A stretch of DNA of 35,929 bases from a virus. Shown piece after piece: positions 798-18,638 of the stretch (its first letter is position 1; every line of letters begins with the position of its first letter). Under the pieces are notes generated by a model that searched no databases, had not been told where the DNA came from, and worked only from the letters and a program-made list of their open reading frames with translations. The stretch spans positions 1-35,929 of the IMG/VR virus record IMGVR_UViG_3300025128_000151. The stretch is one strand, 5' to 3'. Made by a program: the position numbers and the translations under genes.

Positions 798-826
798 TTG
801 ACAACTTGGTTAAAATACGAGATAAT
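798..826 (+). promoter_or_regulatory. Promoter for the first HTH paralogue and structured RNA block
   Basis: TTGACA (798-803), 17-bp spacer, GATAAT (821-826), preceded by AAAAAATAAATC, a variant of the common extension. The predicted +1 is near 833. No terminator is apparent before 2071, so the same transcript probably runs through the HTH gene and the whole structured region. Confidence 0.85.
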
Positions 827-1196: not shown

Positions 1197-1210
1197 AAGG
1201 GTGCAACCCA

Positions 1211-1377
1211 GGCCTCCGGGGAGATAGGAGGCCTTCAGGCTTCACTGGAAGTCATATTGTTGAAGATGCGACGCTAGGTGCGAAACACCTGTTAGATGCT
1301 ACGCATGTATCCGAGAGGATGTGACGTAGCTAGCGCTGATACAGTATGCGAAGGTTCAATCCCTTCGGAGGCCACCA
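1211..1377 (+). ncRNA. tRNA-like domain with encoded CCA and oversized variable region
   Basis: The ends form a perfect 7-bp acceptor stem (1211-1217 with 1367-1373) followed by A and CCA (1374-1377). The T arm is canonical: GAAGG, loop TTCAATC, CCTTC (1350-1366). A D-arm-like GGAG/CTTC (1220-1223 with 1233-1236) has GG in its loop. The anticodon position is abnormal: GGCTT/AAGTC with a 6-nt loop CACTGG, which can also close to a tetraloop. Then 96 nt are inserted before the T arm, with their own helices CATATTG/CAGTATG (1253-1259 with 1342-1348), CGCTAG/CTAGCG and two inner hairpins. It is not an ordinary tRNA, and it lacks the G3-U70 pair of tmRNA. Confidence 0.55.
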
Positions 1378-1433
1378 GATAAGGCTACCTACGTAGTAGC
1401 GACCCTTACCCTCCCGGGGCATAGTAGGGAGGG

Positions 1434-1497
1434 CATTTGAAAGTATGTTTGGACGAAAATTGGTATTGATTCCTATGGACAAGCATACTTTCAAATG
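1434..1497 (+). other. Long perfect hairpin (14-bp stem)
   Basis: CATTTGAAAGTATG at 1434-1447 is exactly complementary to 1484-1497, enclosing a 36-nt loop. An upstream helix CCCTCCC/GGGAGGG (about 1409-1433) ends next to it. This is one arm of the proposed large RNA. Confidence 0.7.
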
Positions 1498-1602
1498 TGG
1501 GGAAGCCAGGGACTGTTCCGTGCTAGACACGGGTGCAAATGAAACAGATAAGGCAGTAAAGATTTCGGTGAAAGTACAATGCCCTGCCGAAGCCTCGCAT
1601 TT

Positions 1603-1752
1603 GTCTGATAGTGCAAATACTATCCGTGAGATTTACGGCCCACGCGTCACAAGGGCTAACCGACCCCTACCAGTAAGCTAGGTGCGATGAAAAAGGGGGT
1701 GCAGGAATCAGTAACCTGCAATATGGTCTGATAGTGCCTACACTATCCGTGA
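1603..1752 (+). repeat. Two copies of a 27-nt hairpin with identical arms and different loops
   Basis: GTCTGATAGTG and ACTATCCGTGA flank a 5-nt centre at 1603-1629 (caaat) and again at 1726-1752 (cctac). All 22 arm positions match, while the loops differ except for the first base. GATAGT/ACTATC forms the stem. In each copy the shared CCGTGA leads into a second pairing element with a GCCC/GGGC helix. Duplication of a structural module with only the loop diverging argues for RNA function. Confidence 0.7.
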
Positions 1753-2020
1753 AAGATGCCCGATACACGTTAACTGACTGGGCGCACTTAAAGTAAAAAA
1801 GGAGAAGTCCTTAGGCGAGAGAGATGGAATTTTGGAAGTGGTCCTTTCAACAGGCTCTTTCTTTAAGGCAGGTTATATGTTGTGAAAATCACGATTTCCC
1901 TTGAACTTAGATTCTACGCCATTGTGTCGTAGTCTACTGAGGAATAAAAAATCGTATTAACGAAGGGCGGTTGTTGTAAACAATGCTACCCTAACCAGGG
2001 AGCGGCGTGGGACAACCATT

Positions 2021-2068
2021 CAGTAAAAAGGCGGAGGGTTTTACTGCAAACTATATAGTTTGGTAAAA
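2021..2068 (+). promoter_or_regulatory. Mutually exclusive hairpins ahead of the terminator
   Basis: CAGTAAAA (2021-2028) pairs perfectly with TTTTACTG (2039-2046). The same TTTTAC can instead pair with GTAAAA (2063-2068), stacking on the self-complementary CAAACTATATAGTTTG (2047-2062). Only one pairing can form at a time. The geometry resembles an attenuator switch, but no ligand or leader peptide is evident. Confidence 0.45.
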
Positions 2069-2070
2069 AG

Positions 2071-2107
2071 AACTTCCTCGATCTTCGGGTCGGGGGAGTT
2101 TCTTCTC
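2071..2107 (+). terminator. UUCG-capped terminator-like hairpin
   Basis: A 13-bp stem (2071-2083 with 2088-2100, several G-U pairs) is capped by TTCG and followed by TTTCTTCT, a moderate U tract. It closes the structured RNA block 20 nt before the next start codon, so it may also be a processing or stability element. Confidence 0.65.
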
Positions 2108-2120
2108 GAAAGGAGTATAA

Positions 2121-2300
2121 ATGCGAGAGTATGAAGTCGAAATTCTAGAATCCTATGAGCGTGTCAGGCGCATTACGGTAAAAGCTGGTAATGAGAAACT
2201 TCTAACGGAAAGGTTAGAGGACATGATCGAGGCGCGACGACGCAGAATTGGAATGGATGAAGCCGACGTAGTAGTACTTGAGCTAACACTCATTGAATGA
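2121..2300 (+). CDS. Small hypothetical protein (59 aa)
   Basis: ATG 2121 follows the strong ribosome site CGAAAGGAGTATAA and gives a 59-residue protein that is not recognised. It is strongly charged, with an N-terminal beta-like stretch (YEVEILESYERVRRITVKAG) and a helical, arginine-rich middle (LTERLEDMIEARRRR). Such a layout often occurs in small phage inhibitors or modulators, but no function can be assigned. It stands alone between the upstream RNA terminator and its own terminator at 2328. Confidence 0.65.
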   Translation: MREYEVEILESYERVRRITVKAGNEKLLTERLEDMIEARRRRIGMDEADVVVLELTLIE

Positions 2301-2327
2301 GGAGGTGACAAATATTTAATTAAGGAA

Positions 2328-2351
2328 GGGTTGCTTAGGCAGCCCTTTTTT
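2328..2351 (+). terminator. Rho-independent terminator
   Basis: GGGTTGC (2328-2334), loop TTAG, GCAGCCC (2339-2345), then six T. One G-U pair in a 7-bp stem. It lies 27 nt after the 59-aa gene and 6 nt before the next -35 box, insulating the following promoter. Confidence 0.85.
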
Positions 2352-2356
2352 ATTTC

Positions 2357-2386
2357 TTGACAAAGTACCTCAAATATTGTTATAAT
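2357..2386 (+). promoter_or_regulatory. Promoter for the 2431-4127 small-gene cluster
   Basis: TTGACA (2357-2362), 18-bp spacer, TATAAT (2381-2386), preceded by TTATTTC, a weaker version of the common extension. The first start codon is 45 nt past the -10 box. Confidence 0.85.
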
Positions 2387-2430
2387 ACTCATCAGAAAAA
2401 TAATCTACAATTTTTATAAGGAAAATTTTT

Positions 2431-2823
2431 ATGGCTGGTAAGGTAATTGACTTTAGTGAAGCCCGAGAACGGCTCACTAACAGACCTTCGGACACTGATT
2501 TCTCTGTGGAGAAAGAAATGGAGTGGGCCAACGCAGAACTCGATGCGGCAGACCTAGAGTTGGATAAAATCACTGAGGAGTTAGATAATTTGACTCAGTA
2601 TATGATCGAACTAACTAGTTATCTTAGTGGTATTTCTGTAGCCCAAACAATCAAAGACGACGGCTACGACGAGTTTATCGCAACTATTGAGGCACAAAGA
2701 AAACACAGAGAGTACGAAGAAAGCGGTGAAGCTCCAATACAACTAGAGCTTGAGATGGGAGAAGGTGAAGAAGCACTTCTAGTAGATTTTACACCTGACT
2801 TTGAGATTGACGATGATAGTTAA
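2431..2823 (+). CDS. Acidic hypothetical protein (130 aa)
   Basis: Not recognised. The protein is strongly acidic with a predicted long helix or coiled coil in residues about 28-70 (MEWANAELDAADLELDKITEELDNLTQYMIELTSYL) and an acidic tail (LELEMGEGEEALLVDFTPDFEIDDDS). ATG 2431 has the ribosome site ATAAGGAAAA. It is the first gene behind the promoter at 2357-2386, with the next start just past its stop. Acidic phage proteins of this kind can mimic DNA or bind host proteins, but nothing here demonstrates that. Confidence 0.7.
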   Translation: MAGKVIDFSEARERLTNRPSDTDFSVEKEMEWANAELDAADLELDKITEELDNLTQYMIELTSYLSGISVAQTIKDDGYDEFIATIEAQRKHREYEESGEAPIQLELEMGEGEEALLVDFTPDFEIDDDS

Positions 2824-2830
2824 AGGCAGT

Positions 2831-3109
2831 ATGAGTTATACAGCCAGCGGAAGAAAGAAAAAACCAATCAAGACTAGAAAAAGGAAAGAGCATGACCGAC
2901 GTAATCTTAGTAGTTCTGGGGATAGTAGTTACCGTGGGGATTCTATTGGGAGTCACAGCACTAACACTGCATTTAACGGGCAAAAGTTATCCCCGGAATG
3001 GGAAGCAGAACGACGAGCTATAAGTAGTAATTATACTATAGCCCCTGCATATAACAAAGGGGCTTATCAAGTTATCGGCAAAAACGAAGTGGAGGATATT
3101 GGGAAATGA
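2831..3109 (+). CDS. Small basic hypothetical protein (92 aa)
   Basis: Reading from ATG 2831 (AAAGG 4 nt upstream) gives a protein starting MSYTASGRKKKPIKTRKRK. The N terminus is very basic, the middle is Ser/Gly-rich and the C terminus is less biased (GAYQVIGKNEVEDIGK). The Ser-rich middle coincides with an out-of-frame hydrophobic ORF at 2892-3023, so its odd composition may be imposed by that overlap. The stop overlaps the next ATG as ATGA, consistent with translational coupling. Function unknown. Confidence 0.55.
   Translation: MSYTASGRKKKPIKTRKRKEHDRRNLSSSGDSSYRGDSIGSHSTNTAFNGQKLSPEWEAERRAISSNYTIAPAYNKGAYQVIGKNEVEDIGK
2892..3023 (+). CDS. Single-span membrane mini-protein (43 aa) nested in another gene
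   Basis: ATG 2892 has the ribosome site AAAAAGGAAAGAG. The frame encodes a textbook transmembrane helix from residue 4 to about 28 (VILVVLGIVVTVGILLGVTALTL) and a short polar tail. It lies wholly inside the 2831-3109 gene in another frame. A clean hydrophobic helix with a good ribosome site is unlikely to be chance, but codon statistics would be needed to decide between one or two real genes. No function can be assigned. Confidence 0.5.
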   Translation: MTDVILVVLGIVVTVGILLGVTALTLHLTGKSYPRNGKQNDEL

Positions 3110-3402
3110 GTAAAATTGGATCATACAATATAGAGCTGGAAGACGCAGTATACTCTATGATTGACGAAGGTGAGCAGTTCGACGACATTGTTGAATATGT
3201 CAGAAAAACTTTTAAAATGAGCGATAACGGAGCGTACGATACAGTTGGAAAGCTATGGGACGAGATAGCTAATGTAGAGTCACAGTACGAACGTTTAAGT
3301 CATGGAGTCAACGATATGTCCGACGATGCGGAAGCTTTAGCTTCTGCTGGCTGGGGCACAGACGAAGACTATGGAGGTTACTCTAATGAAGATTACTTTT
3401 AG
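3106..3402 (+). CDS. Acidic hypothetical protein (98 aa)
   Basis: Not recognised. Residues 10-60 look helical (LEDAVYSMIDEGEQFDDIVEYVRKTF, then a DNGAYDTVGKLWDEI segment that could be an HTH-like turn). The C terminus is a low-complexity acidic, Gly/Tyr-rich tail (GWGTDEDYGGYSNEDYF). The ATG overlaps the previous stop, with GGAGGATATTGGG as ribosome site. It overlaps the next gene by 17 nt. Confidence 0.65.
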   Translation: MSKIGSYNIELEDAVYSMIDEGEQFDDIVEYVRKTFKMSDNGAYDTVGKLWDEIANVESQYERLSHGVNDMSDDAEALASAGWGTDEDYGGYSNEDYF

Positions 3403-3556
3403 GAGAGATTTCTTTAACTGTTTCAAAGCCAACAAGGAGTTTTTGTTGCTACCATGTCTAAAGATAGATTGGTACTATGGGATTGGAATCCATGGAGGAT
3501 TCCTGTGTTGGAGATTCTTTTTAGAGTGGGAAAATAACAAAAGTGGCAAACTATAA
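3386..3556 (+). CDS. Small aromatic-rich hypothetical protein (56 aa)
   Basis: ATG 3386 is preceded by ATGGAGG at 8 nt. The product is rich in Phe and Trp (WYYGIGIHGGFLCWRFFLEWENN), with three Cys and a basic N terminus. It is hydrophobic but broken by charges, so it is more likely a small beta-protein or peripheral membrane protein than a clean membrane span. Overlaps both neighbours by 14-17 nt, typical of the compact genes here. Function unknown. Confidence 0.5.
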   Translation: MKITFRRDFFNCFKANKEFLLLPCLKIDWYYGIGIHGGFLCWRFFLEWENNKSGKL

Positions 3557-3848
3557 CGAAGAACAAGTCCAGCGTATGATTGACGAATACAACCTCACGC
3601 CTTCGCGTGAAACCGTAGAAGCCCTGGCGAAAGAATTTAACAAAAGTCCTAAATCAATCATAGGCAAGCTAGCACGCGAAGGCGTATACCAGAAACAGAT
3701 ATATGTCTCTAAAACTGGCGAAAAACCAATAACGAAAGTCGAGATTGTGAGAGAAATCGCGGAAAACCTTGGCTTAACTGAAACACAACTGAGCGGGCTG
3801 GAGAAGAGCCCAAAAGGAGTATTAAAACTATTATGCGACAATATATAA
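3543..3848 (+). CDS. Small HTH DNA-binding protein, paralogue family copy 2
   Basis: A GTG-started 101-aa protein closely matching the 882-1196 product over its whole length: Y(N/T)-(E/D)E--V--M-D-Y--TP-R-TV-ALA-EF-KS--S-I-KL-REGVY in residues 3-48, then K-E-V--I-E-LG in the C-terminal part. It is a within-genome duplication with one HTH-type domain plus a short helical tail. The ribosome site is weak (GAGTGGGAAAA), and translation may be coupled to the gene it overlaps by 14 nt. Likely DNA-binding by fold; the target is unknown. Confidence 0.75.
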   Translation: MANYNEEQVQRMIDEYNLTPSRETVEALAKEFNKSPKSIIGKLAREGVYQKQIYVSKTGEKPITKVEIVREIAENLGLTETQLSGLEKSPKGVLKLLCDNI

Positions 3849-4644: not shown

Positions 4645-4880
4645 ATGTAGAAATATTTGGACGGCCAGCATGTGGCTTTTGTGTCGCTGCTAGAAATGTT
4701 TGCGAGAAAGCTGGTATTGAGTACACTTATTACGAGCTGAACGAGGACTTTACCGTAGATGAGTTGTTTATAAAAGTGCCTTTTAGTACTTATCCTCAGA
4801 TATTTGTGGATGGAGTACCCGTAGGAGGCTATAGCGACTTTATGGTCATACTAGGAGAAGCAACAGGAGGAATTATATGA
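4641..4880 (+). CDS. Glutaredoxin-like thiol-disulfide oxidoreductase
   Basis: A 79-aa thioredoxin-fold protein of normal glutaredoxin size. The redox motif is C11-G-F-C14 after a beta strand (MNVEIFGRPA); the cis-proline is P52 in STYPQIF, followed by VDG and the GGYSDF loop that contacts glutathione. Glutaredoxins reduce ribonucleotide reductase and other disulfides in the cytoplasm, and a class I RNR alpha subunit is encoded at 33835-35610, so it may recycle that enzyme. Dithiol glutaredoxins can also handle Fe-S clusters, relevant to the IscU and IscA genes just downstream. The CGFC sequence differs from the usual CPYC. Confidence 0.9.
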   Translation: MNVEIFGRPACGFCVAARNVCEKAGIEYTYYELNEDFTVDELFIKVPFSTYPQIFVDGVPVGGYSDFMVILGEATGGII

Positions 4881-5198: not shown

Positions 5199-5572
5199 TG
5201 GCTTACTCAGATAAAGTGTTGGATCACTACCAGAATCCGAGAAACGTAGGAAAATGGGAAGAATCCGAAGATATCGGTACAGGTATGGTGGGAGCACCCG
5301 CCTGTGGAGACGTTATGCGTCTACAGATAAAGGTGAAAGACGGCATCATAGAAGATGCTAAGTTTAAAACTTATGGTTGTGGAAGTGCTATAGCTTCGAG
5401 TTCTCTTTTGACCGAATGGGTGAAAGGAAGGACGTTGGACGAAGCGAATAGTATTAGAAACACCGAGATCGCGGAAGAGCTTGCTCTACCTCCAGTAAAG
5501 ATTCATTGTTCAGTACTGGCAGAGGATGCGATTAAAGCAGCTATTCGTGATATAAGGGAAAAGCAAACATGA
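5198..5572 (+). CDS. iscU: IscU-type Fe-S cluster scaffold protein
   Basis: A 124-aa protein with every diagnostic feature of IscU: C36 in GAPACGDVM with D38, C61 in TYGCGSAIASSS, and C104 in LPPVKIHCSVLAEDA, where the LPPVK stretch is the HscA chaperone recognition motif. Length matches cellular IscU (about 128 aa). IscU assembles [2Fe-2S] clusters from IscS-derived sulfur in the cytoplasm. IscS, HscA and HscB are not seen here, so the phage scaffold presumably uses host partners. ATG 5198 overlaps the previous stop and has AAGGA upstream. All ligands are intact, so it is probably functional. Confidence 0.95.
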   Translation: MAYSDKVLDHYQNPRNVGKWEESEDIGTGMVGAPACGDVMRLQIKVKDGIIEDAKFKTYGCGSAIASSSLLTEWVKGRTLDEANSIRNTEIAEELALPPVKIHCSVLAEDAIKAAIRDIREKQT

Positions 5573-5889
5573 TCAGTTTAACCCCCGTTGCAGCTTCACA
5601 TATAACCAATTACCTAGAAAACCGTGGAAAAGGAATCGGCATACGTGTTGCCGTACAGACCACAGGATGCTCAGGTTTCATGTATGTGCTAGAACCAGTG
5701 GATGAACGAAATACCGAAGATGAACACTTTTTTAGTCAAGGCGTGGATCTGTTCGTAGACAAGAAAAGTCTTCTCTACGTGCAGGGCACAGAAATGGATT
5801 ATGTAAAAGAGGGGCTGAATGAAGGGTTTAACTTTAAGAATCCTAATGTTTCAGCAGAATGCGGTTGTGGCGAGAGCTTCAACATTTAG
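5569..5889 (+). CDS. A-type Fe-S cluster carrier (IscA/ErpA family)
   Basis: A 106-aa HesB/IscA-fold protein with the three invariant cysteines: C34 in TTGCSGFMYVLE and C98/C100 in the C-terminal ECGCGESF. A-type carriers accept clusters from IscU and hand them to apo-enzymes. The ATG overlaps the iscU stop by 4 nt, so the two are translationally coupled and probably form a scaffold-carrier pair. Whether it is closer to IscA, ErpA or SufA cannot be told by eye. Candidate clients in this window are not obvious; an Fe-S host protein or a phage protein elsewhere is possible. Confidence 0.93.
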   Translation: MISLTPVAASHITNYLENRGKGIGIRVAVQTTGCSGFMYVLEPVDERNTEDEHFFSQGVDLFVDKKSLLYVQGTEMDYVKEGLNEGFNFKNPNVSAECGCGESFNI

Positions 5890-5898
5890 GAGAGTAAC

Positions 5899-6090
5899 AT
5901 GGAGAGCGAACTACCAGACGACTTAACAATTATAGACAATAGATTAGTTCAGTATCTAATACTGACAGGCTATTACTTGTATCAGGGACATAATTTGGAG
6001 GACATTTCTACAAATTCTTTATCTAACTTAAAAGAGCTTGTAGAACTTGAAATCCTGTATAGACAGAACAAAGAAGAATTTGAGGCATAG
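5899..6090 (+). CDS. Small hypothetical protein (63 aa)
   Basis: ATG 5899 has the site TAGGAGAGTAAC. The product is acidic and predicted helical (DDLTIIDNRLVQYLILTGYYLYQGHNLEDIS, then LKELVELEILYRQNKEEFEA). No family recognised. It follows the Fe-S carrier by 9 nt, so is probably in the same transcript. Confidence 0.6.
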   Translation: MESELPDDLTIIDNRLVQYLILTGYYLYQGHNLEDISTNSLSNLKELVELEILYRQNKEEFEA

Positions 6091-6091
6091 T

Positions 6092-6322
6092 ATGGAAAAG
6101 ACAGAACTACACAGTTTTATTAGTAAAGATAAGGAATTTGAGGCAAAAGTATTTATATATGAAGATAAGTTTTCTGCTTATCGTCATGTTGTAGAAGTCT
6201 ATCGTGAGGGCGCACACACGGCTACTTATGATTTCAGTAATGAAAACATGGCTAAGTATTGGGCCGATGATTGTATGCTAGACTATGAATTATCCCGCGT
6301 TGCTAAGAGAGGAGAAAACTAA
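6092..6322 (+). CDS. Small hypothetical protein (76 aa)
   Basis: ATG 6092 is 1 nt after the previous stop; AATTTGAGG serves as ribosome site. The product is a mixed alpha/beta protein (LHSFISKDKEFEAKVFIYEDKFSAYRHVVEVYREGAHTATYDFSNENMAKYWADDCMLDYELSRV). Not recognised. It is the last rightward gene before the convergent minus-strand operon, and its 3' end overlaps the 6290-6478 gene tail to tail by 33 nt. Confidence 0.6.
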   Translation: MEKTELHSFISKDKEFEAKVFIYEDKFSAYRHVVEVYREGAHTATYDFSNENMAKYWADDCMLDYELSRVAKRGEN

Positions 6323-6478
6323 TTCTAAGTACTCTCCTCGTAGCTCCTCTGGACATACATCAATACTTGGATATAACTCCAGTATCGAAACTTCAGGTTG
6401 TGGTAAGTTCTTTTTAGGCTCTTTTCTGGGTTCCTTTCTTGGGAATCCCTGGGCCTTGTAGTACTTATAAGCTCTCAA
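6290..6478 (-). CDS. Small hypothetical protein (62 aa), end of leftward operon
   Basis: On the minus strand, a TTG start at 6478 has the good site GGAGATAATTC. The N terminus is basic and Pro/Lys-rich (YYKAQGFPRKEPRKEPKKNLPQPE) and the C terminus acidic (EELRGEYLELVFSSL). Not recognised. It follows bS21 by 4 nt and is last in the four-gene leftward operon. Its 3' end overlaps the last rightward gene, and no terminator is visible between the two. Confidence 0.55.
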   Translation of the reverse strand: MRAYKYYKAQGFPRKEPRKEPKKNLPQPEVSILELYPSIDVCPEELRGEYLELVFSSLSNAG

Positions 6479-6482
6479 AGAA

Positions 6483-6689
6483 TTATCTCCTCTTTGTCGG
6501 GCCGTCCCTCATTTGTTGTCTCTTCTGAGACCTTAACGTTCCTTCCATTTTCTGGCGTCTTCGTTTTGCTGAGGGCTTCTCATAATGAGTCCTCGATCGA
6601 ATTAATTGGAGCTTTCCATCCTCTTCGACCTTACGTTTAAACCTTGAAATTGCTTTTTCAATGTTATTATTTTTAACTTCCACTCTCAC
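6483..6689 (-). CDS. rpsU: Ribosomal protein bS21
   Basis: A 68-aa basic protein with the bS21 layout: beta start (MRVEVKNNN), helix with ISRFKRKVEEDGKL, the diagnostic THYEKPSAKRRRQK (compare EFYEKPTTERKRAK in E. coli S21) and a long basic C-terminal helix. Cellular bS21 is about 70 aa, exchangeable on the 30S subunit and close to the anti-Shine-Dalgarno region, so a phage copy could bias initiation towards phage mRNA; that role is inference. bS21 is known from other phages. It starts at GTG 6689 (GTG 6683 possible) and overlaps the upstream gene by 17 nt. Confidence 0.9.
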   Translation of the reverse strand: MRVEVKNNNIEKAISRFKRKVEEDGKLQLIRSRTHYEKPSAKRRRQKMEGTLRSQKRQQMRDGPTKRR

Positions 6690-8645: not shown

Positions 8646-9052
8646 TGCAGTATATATTTATTATTGCGCTACTAGGATCTCTAGGTGGCCTTGGATACAA
8701 GATGTATACCGATACTATGAATCGGATGCAATCTATAGCAAACGAAAAGGCCGCTCTAGAGGTCCAACTTCAAGAACAAGCAGCAGCTATGGAAGCTCAG
8801 TTAGAAGCCATGAGGTTGCAAACAGAATCTTTAAATGAGATGAATGATAGGGCCGCTATAGTAGAGGCTCAAATGACTTCTTATTTAAAAATTTTTAAGG
8901 ATCACGACCTTACGCGCCTCGCGCGCGCAAAGCCTGGAATGATTGAAACACGGGCAAATAAAAGAACAGATGAAATATTCACGGAGGTAGAAAATGATAC
9001 TAAGCAGGTTGTTGCCACTGACGCCCCTGCTTCTGATGACAGCGTGCGTTAG
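8645..9052 (+). CDS. Inner-membrane spanin subunit (Rz-like)
   Basis: A GTG-started protein of 135 aa: an N-terminal membrane anchor (residues 3-20, YIFIIALLGSLGGLGYKM), then a periplasmic coiled coil rich in Gln/Glu/Ala (about 30-80) and a polar tail, the domain order of i-spanins. It follows the lysozyme directly, and the next gene, a lipoprotein, starts inside it in another frame, as in Rz/Rz1. Spanins fuse inner and outer membranes at the last step of lysis, so the host has an outer membrane. An in-frame start at 8615 would lie within lysozyme. Confidence 0.85.
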   Translation: MQYIFIIALLGSLGGLGYKMYTDTMNRMQSIANEKAALEVQLQEQAAAMEAQLEAMRLQTESLNEMNDRAAIVEAQMTSYLKIFKDHDLTRLARAKPGMIETRANKRTDEIFTEVENDTKQVVATDAPASDDSVR

Positions 9053-17912: not shown

Positions 17913-18638
17913 ATGGCAGTACCCAAGTGGACTGAAGATCGCACCACAGAGTTGACAAACTTTGTAGGTAGTGAAAGCCCGGTATCTCAAGCAACCGTTG
18001 CCCAAGCGGCAGAATCGCTTGATACTAGTTCTCGTTCAGTATCCTCGAAGTTGCGAAAAATGGGCTATGAAGTGGAACTCGCTTCCGCTACTAGCACTCG
18101 CACCTTCTCAGATGCAGAAGAGGCCACTCTACAACAGTTTGTAGAGGATAATTCTGGTGCATATACTTATGCAGAGATTTCTGACACCTTTGCTGGTGGT
18201 AAGTATAGTGCAAAATCCATCCAAGGAAAAATTCTTTCGATGGAACTCACCGATCACGTTAAACCCGCTGAAAAGCCTGTTAGTGTACGGACTTACAGCG
18301 AAGATGAGGAAGCTACCTTTCTTGATTTGGTTGCAGATGGGGCCTTTGTCGAAGATATCGCAGAAGCTCTCGATCGTCAAGTGAATTCTATCCGAGGTAA
18401 GGCATTGTCTTTCCTCCGAACAGGTGAAATTGACGCTATTCCTCCCCAGCGTGAGACTAAGTCTGCGTCAGCGGTTGATCCGCTCACGGAGCTTGGTGAC
18501 ATCTCCGACATGACTGTCGAAGAAATCGCTGAGGAAATCGGTAAGACTGAACGTGGTGTAAAAACCATGCTTACTCGACGTGGTCTGGTTGCATCAGATT
18601 ATGATGGAGCTGCAAAGAAAGAAAAAGCCGCAGGTTAA
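17913..18638 (+). CDS. Four-repeat HTH/Myb-like DNA-binding protein
   Basis: A 241-aa protein built from four related HTH units: about 4-52 (KWTEDRTTELTNFVGSES to SVSSKLRKMGYEVE), 60-110 (RTFSDAEEATLQQFVEDN to SIQGKILSMELTDHV), 119-165 (RTYSEDEEATFLDLVADG to SIRGKALSFLRTGE) and 180-230 (DPLTELGDISDMTVEEIAEEIGKTERGVKTMLTRRGLV). Each ends in S/G-(V/I)--K--(M/L)--- like the recognition helix of the single-domain paralogues (882, 3543, 15002). It should contact several sites or coat DNA. It lies 1 nt after the ligase subunit, with TGGAGAATTG as ribosome site, and is followed by a terminator. Confidence 0.78.
   Translation: MAVPKWTEDRTTELTNFVGSESPVSQATVAQAAESLDTSSRSVSSKLRKMGYEVELASATSTRTFSDAEEATLQQFVEDNSGAYTYAEISDTFAGGKYSAKSIQGKILSMELTDHVKPAEKPVSVRTYSEDEEATFLDLVADGAFVEDIAEALDRQVNSIRGKALSFLRTGEIDAIPPQRETKSASAVDPLTELGDISDMTVEEIAEEIGKTERGVKTMLTRRGLVASDYDGAAKKEKAAG

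Follow-up and report, generated by a model that had tools for sequence, protein, structure and literature searches.

GOLLD is a large structured RNA encoded by phages in which a conserved part stands beside a more variable one, which often lies near tRNAs or contains them, and which forms a 14-mer RNA cage (PMC12286853). ROOL is a large RNA of phages and prophages found near tRNA islands (PMC12286853). For positions 1198-2107 of the viral contig IMGVR_UViG_3300025128_000151, whose 35,929 bases constitute the window analysed here, the original prediction had proposed a giant structured RNA, possibly of one of these two classes. The class assignment is not supported: no Rfam family reaches its gathering score on the window, neither GOLLD nor ROOL is found among the Rfam matches up to E 10 in 700-2500, and neither attains the gathering score in 23 related loci. 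The locus shares with GOLLD the character of a large structured phage RNA having a more variable part next to a conserved one, as well as the predicted association with tRNA-type elements, which takes the form of tRNA-type genes in relatives and of a mere tRNA-like fold in the window itself. It differs from GOLLD in that its conserved domain, designated M3, is situated at the 5' end of the RNA in stand-alone relatives while that of GOLLD is at the 3' end. At 0.9-1.0 kb, the “giant” size applies to the RNA of the window and of its nearest relatives, whereas most relatives, again differing from GOLLD, measure only about 330-670 nt. From ROOL the M3-bearing RNA is set apart by its construction from modules which change in order and number. 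Many relatives have permuted tmRNAs (RF04321) at this locus or close to it, and these share the tRNA-type acceptor and T-arm with the tRNA-like fold of the window; M3, however, is a separate RNA, and a tmRNA or permuted tmRNA is recognised by ARAGORN at default settings or by Rfam in L086 and other relatives but not in the window. Group I and group II introns are likewise compact pseudoknotted RNAs occurring in phage genomes, yet the locus yields no Rfam match to them and no gene is interrupted here. In the literature searched, outside of which lay most subscription journals and bioRxiv, no earlier description of an M3-bearing RNA was found.

The gene set of the contig is T5-like, comprising a split NAD-dependent DNA ligase, a DnaB-like helicase, a DNA polymerase, a helicase, SbcD/SbcC-like proteins and ribonucleotide reductase. 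In comparison with Demerecviridae, for example Proteus phage Stubb and Vibrio phage phi 3, its polymerase reaches about 42% identity, and the order ligase A, ligase B, D5, helicase, primase, polymerase is common to these phages and the contig. The D5-like protein encoded directly upstream of the RNA (Table 1) gives no tblastn match in annotated phages; its gene has a paralogue at about 3543-3848, and position 18638 marks the end of a longer D5 relative. Between this gene and a 59-aa gene, which is preceded by a ribosome-binding site and starts 14 nt after the end of the RNA, the stretch 1198-2107 indeed lacks a credible gene, as had been proposed. Its longest ATG/GTG/TTG reading frames comprise 78 aa (+, 1445-1681) and 66 aa (-, 1330-1530), and none is kept as a protein. 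Translated matching to relatives revealed no conserved protein frame across 1198-2107; the matches obtained are short, fall on M3 and on a second domain, M2, and occur in several frames and on both strands, as for a conserved RNA, in contrast to the flanking D5-like gene which matches its relatives normally. Between the three codon phases GC content hardly differs in the region (0.46, 0.48, 0.49), unlike in the neighbouring genes. The minimum free energy of 1198-2107 amounts to -316 kcal/mol compared to -276 +/- 10.5 kcal/mol in shuffled sequences (z -3.8; none of 20 shuffles as good). Both the inverted repeats (at low stringency 21 pairs measuring 8 nt or more, among which an 18-nt stem at 94%, 1434-1451/1480-1497, is the best) and the internal duplication (27 nt at 89%, 1603-1629 and 1726-1752) were recovered. 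A blastn search of the region against annotated phages returned nothing beyond 26-base chance matches. That 1198-2107 is an RNA gene is nearly certain. We further consider it likely that its product is a large structured noncoding RNA belonging to a new family in uncultured T5-like phages, and propose with less assurance that the released RNA may act in trans in a manner similar to GOLLD and ROOL; the large structured phage RNA as such is borne out by covariation, by recurrence and by stand-alone transcription units in relatives.

Table 1. Features of the RNA locus and its surroundings (positions refer to the window unless a locus is named).
Feature	Position	Strand	Basis or remark
Sigma-70-type promoter TTGACA-17-GATAAT	798..826	+	11/12 consensus matches; start of transcription unit
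D5-like small DNA-binding protein gene, 104 aa	882..1196	+	upstream neighbour of RNA; PHROG 323 “D5-like transcriptional regulator”, E 1.5e-4
M1 hairpin, copy 1, stem AGGCCTCC/GGAGGCCT, loop GGGGAGATA	1210..1234	+	perfect inverted repeat
tRNA-like fold	1211..1377	+	geometry search, 0 in 100 simulated windows
M1 hairpin, copy 2, CCCTCCC/GGGAGGG, loop GGGGCATAGTA	1409..1433	+	read from sequence
M2 domain, long stem around conserved ACGAAAATTGGTAT..ATTCCTATGG element	1434..1497	+	18-nt inverted repeat
M3 domain, 106 nt, four helices and pseudoknot	1495..1600	+	covariance model R1, 103 bits
M4 domain, copy 1: hairpin TAGTGCAAATACTA, CCGTGA, second hairpin	1603..1660	+	27-nt duplication, 89%
Middle domain: GACCCC..GGGGGT helix, GCAGG..CCTGC hairpin	1661..1721	+	aligns with L003 and L004
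M4 domain, copy 2	1726..1785	+	27-nt duplication
3' domain, ending in hairpin at about 2071-2100	1868..2107	+	L003/L004 alignment
Small downstream gene, 59 aa, in transcription unit of RNA	2121..2300	+	protein identity 68-70% in L003 and L004
Strong intrinsic terminator of transcription unit	2321..2352	+	followed by 12/12 promoter
Second tRNA-like RNA, examples	L011 1398-1466, L032 388-456, L034 2133-2201, L039 5351-5419, L060 5339-5407	+	model matches

Relatives of the locus were gathered by scans with the D5-like protein, which provided L003-L006, then 80 loci and then 80 more, many of them overlapping; many of the first 80 contain about 1 kb or more without a long reading frame after the D5-like gene. 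A corresponding single-sequence scan with the 59-aa protein returned no relatives although L003 and L004 encode one. Shared blocks M1, M2 and M3 were first seen by eye upon comparison of the window with L003, L004, L005/L028 and L086. M3, the best supported of them, consists of an outer stem P1, a GCC/GGC helix, a variable hairpin P2, a hairpin P3 and a GGG/CCC pseudoknot, and its conserved elements follow each other in the order GGGAAGCCAGGGAC .. GATAAGGCAGTAAAGAT .. CGGTGAAAG .. CCGAAGCC. In a MAFFT alignment of 23 members which was not fitted to the covariance model, compensatory double changes are observed in 14 of the 18 pairs, those of the pseudoknot included, and RNAalifold returns P1, the GCC/GGC helix and P3 (12 pairs, nine with double changes). 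The covariation score of 0.481 compares to 0.173 +/- 0.017 in shuffled controls and to at most 0.139 when the pairing partners are slid. P2 differs in sequence and length between groups while folding back as a hairpin beside the conserved loops in nearly all members. We would like to note that in L188 (8304-8433), L191 (6417-6563) and L201 (2400-2563) this hairpin includes a tandem repeat of variable copy number with a unit of about 17 nt (ACAGTTTTGTACTTGAT).

The covariance model of M3, built from 11 sequences, recovered diverged members outside this set, for example L054 (E 1.8e-7), L004 (1.1e-6) and L003 (2.1e-6), as well as L111, L115, L122, L125, L129 and L141. Combined with pattern scans, the first of which found 13 stretches and the second, using a different pattern, 27, it places M3 in about 45 distinct viral contigs including the window, so that a structure supported by covariation recurs in different phages, as is to be expected of a new family. 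Pattern matches in the bacterial or archaeal genomes L101-L103 (model E 0.5-1.5) and in L104 (no model match up to E 10) were discarded as chance. The stretches from Vibrio phage phi 3 and Proteus phage Stubb, both cultured and T5-like, yielded no M3, their best score being 11.5 bits (E 1.7); M3 had no match in plasmids, and the RNA of one relative had none in phages.

The remaining modules are arranged in the window in the order M1, tRNA-like fold, second M1, M2, M3, M4 twice, middle domain and 3' domain, with M4 counted twice around the middle domain (Table 1). M1-equivalent hairpins directly follow the D5-like stop codon in L003, L004, L005 and L054; the stem and the GGGG..TA loop pattern of copy 2 are the same as in M1 of relatives, while the 5' strand of copy 1 may alternatively serve as the acceptor 5' strand of the tRNA-like fold. 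In the by-eye comparison the M2 block appears as ACGAAAATTGGTAT..TCCTATGG in a stem, and its core is present in ten M3 loci as well as in L187 and L188. For the eight loci in which both M2 flanks could be taken mechanically, a locus's own flanks pair at a mean of -15.2 kcal/mol versus -5.8 kcal/mol for mixed flanks, one of 20,000 permutations being as good. M4 copy 1 is homologous to L003 at about 4726-4776 and to L004 at about 8905-8960. In the 3' domain 11 of 54 RNAalifold pairs show double changes, a figure obtained from only three sequences, so the covariation in the M4, middle and 3' domains shared with L003 and L004 is suggestive. Overall, covariation is strong in M3, fair in M2 and thin in the rest of the window RNA with its three sequences. 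At the sequence level, M3 and M2 are shown to be conserved RNA domains whose structure is maintained by compensatory substitutions.

In 16 of 25 loci a promoter matching the consensus at 11-12 of 12 positions precedes M3, with 9-31 nt between the end of its -10 box and M3, and an intrinsic terminator is situated about 335-670 nt downstream; by these sequence signals the M3 RNA is a stand-alone gene in most relatives, with M3 as its 5' domain. The compact RNA of L088, for instance, measures about 450 nt. In a compact form M3 occupies the 5' end, M2 lies in the middle and a AGTAGGCAGGTAGTC-like motif near the 3' end, so that, given the M1-M2-M3 succession of the window class, the domain order varies. 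The motif AGGCAGGTTATATG of the window was compared with AGTAGGCAGGTAGTC by eye only, and we do not claim the two to be equivalent. The window RNA is expanded to about 0.9 kb by extra M1 and M4 copies, the tRNA-like insert and an extra 3' domain, and is probably read behind the D5-like gene, having no recognisable promoter of its own. The predicted consensus promoter is present but precedes the D5-like gene rather than the RNA itself, as it does in L003, L004 and L054. Similarly, the hairpin taken for the final terminator is a conserved helix but a weak terminator, the strong one being located after the small gene. Given these two signals, the transcription unit measures about 1.5 kb and has the window RNA as its middle part. 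A perfect 12/12 promoter at 2357-2386 directly follows the terminator of this unit.

The predicted tRNA-like fold is indeed found. Its acceptor stem comprises 7 bp (1211-1217/1367-1373) followed by ACCA (1374-1377), and its T-arm (1350-1366) a 5-bp stem, GAAGG TTCAATC CCTTC. Only these two elements are present, an insert of about 130 nt replacing the D and anticodon arms, so that the fold is no canonical cloverleaf with an anticodon arm. It scores below the ARAGORN default; only when the threshold is lowered does the program list it, as a tRNA with an intron. The tmRNA and intron-tRNA interpretations that such relaxed settings produce for the window come together with obvious nonsense and were rejected. 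It competes with the M1 hairpin and with an alternative of lower energy. Since L003, L004, L005 and L054 each possess one M1 and no insert, the insert is likely a gain in the window phage. tRNA-type genes occupy the same place in relatives: a tRNA-Met beside the RNA or D5-like gene in L028, a tRNA-Cys 14 nt after M3 in L115, and permuted tmRNAs matching RF04321 beside the RNA or D5-like gene in L086 (5294-5625), L105 (3393-3714), L109 (2748-3069), L111 (2237-2605), L118, L119, L121 (4281-4709), L188, L191, L198, L201 and L203 (1901-2244). The latter encode tags such as ANDDVYQLAA, and some of the genes overlap the end of the D5-like gene. Shortly after the D5-like stop codon, sister phages that lack M3 have a second tRNA-like RNA, consisting of an acceptor stem, a D-arm-like GUGUCUACGGAAGCAC and a T-arm, with neither an encoded CCA nor an anticodon arm of normal size. 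Its model gives 29 matches at E below 1e-10, all on the + strand, in 29 sister-phage loci, while no Rfam match was obtained in the loci tested. Double changes occur at nine of its 15 pairs and, like the model matches, speak for this RNA; the 100% pairing of the nine seeds is by construction, as these were picked for perfect pairing. At the equivalent place the sister phages L034 (about 2310-3450) and L039 (about 5480-6600) show a number of promoter-like sites together with another extended noncoding stretch which ends in a terminator-like hairpin and has no M3 match, possibly another large RNA family.

An acceptor/T-arm minihelix is the minimal RNase P substrate, and for this reason we propose RNase P processing of the tRNA-like fold. 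The transcript containing the window RNA would start at the promoter that precedes the D5-like gene and end at the terminator behind the small gene, and the fold, placed just after the D5-like stop codon, would be cut by RNase P and perhaps also by the tRNA 3'-end enzyme, separating the mRNA from the RNA. In relatives the tRNAs, tmRNAs or other tRNA-like RNAs at the same place could serve an equivalent role. With less assurance than the processing, we put forward that the RNA, once released, might work in trans while the phage infects its host, in a structural or scaffolding capacity resembling GOLLD or ROOL and either by itself or attached to host machinery, for instance the ribosome. A trans-acting structural RNA, GOLLD/ROOL-like in manner and not in membership, seems the most likely role because most relatives have the M3-bearing RNA as a separate unit, because it is not bound to any particular gene downstream, and because its compact pseudoknotted core is retained. 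More tentatively, the RNAs may represent a modular family of large trans-acting phage RNAs whose domains are exchanged, repeated and reordered round an invariant pseudoknotted core, with anticodon-less tRNA-like “punctuation” freeing the RNA from the mRNA and, possibly, RNA-only assembly or binding to a host machine.

Alternatively, the locus could be a cis-acting intercistronic region that controls the flanking genes as a riboswitch-like element, an attenuator or a translational control. As the RNA lies within an operon without a promoter of its own, action on the D5-like mRNA or on the 59-aa gene, before whose ribosome-binding site it ends at such short distance, is possible in the window; the nearest relatives, too, co-transcribe the RNA with the D5-like gene. 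Moreover, the position is conserved, D5-like and/or VIDF-like genes flanking M3 in 24 of 25 loci with the D5-like gene upstream in most, and in L094, L203, L201 and L187 the gene of a small membrane protein comes after M3 or after the RNA. On the other hand, a strong terminator succeeds the RNA in most relatives, the next gene has its own promoter past this terminator where it was read (L088, L089, L095, L097), and the RNA domain persists where its neighbours differ. Seven further contigs (L187, L188, L190, L191, L198, L201, L203) have neither a D5-like nor a VIDF-like gene nearby, and in L187, L201 and L203 M3 is followed, as judged by eye, by the small (~50-aa) membrane-protein-like gene and a bacterioferritin-associated-ferredoxin-like gene. 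We consider cis control unlikely. Far less probable still is a self-splicing intron or self-cleaving ribozyme with M3 as its catalytic core: a pseudoknotted domain of about 100 nt with long invariant loop stretches is reminiscent of ribozymes, but neither an intron nor a known ribozyme is matched by Rfam in the window, the D5-like gene is intact, and M3 stands alone behind a promoter in relatives. We give hardly any credence to functionless remains of a decayed tRNA/tmRNA island. The tRNAs, permuted tmRNAs and tRNA-like folds at the same place and the abnormal fold of the window would fit such decay, yet compensatory changes need continued selection, which contradicts it for M3 and M2, and dedicated promoters and terminators are present; for the insert at 1235-1408 alone this explanation may apply. 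A very diverged GOLLD or ROOL RNA, suggested by similar size, phage origin and nearness to tRNA-type genes (PMC12286853), is equally improbable in view of the Rfam results for the window and the 23 related loci.

Large structured phage RNAs form a sparsely populated class in which GOLLD and ROOL are the most prominent, and to which the M3-bearing family adds about 45 contigs. The conserved core is compact enough for testing, and most members have a clear transcription unit, so that structure, partners and phenotype of the RNA can be studied. With so many kinds of tRNA-type element at one place, the processing of phage transcripts at tRNA-like structures also becomes open to direct testing.
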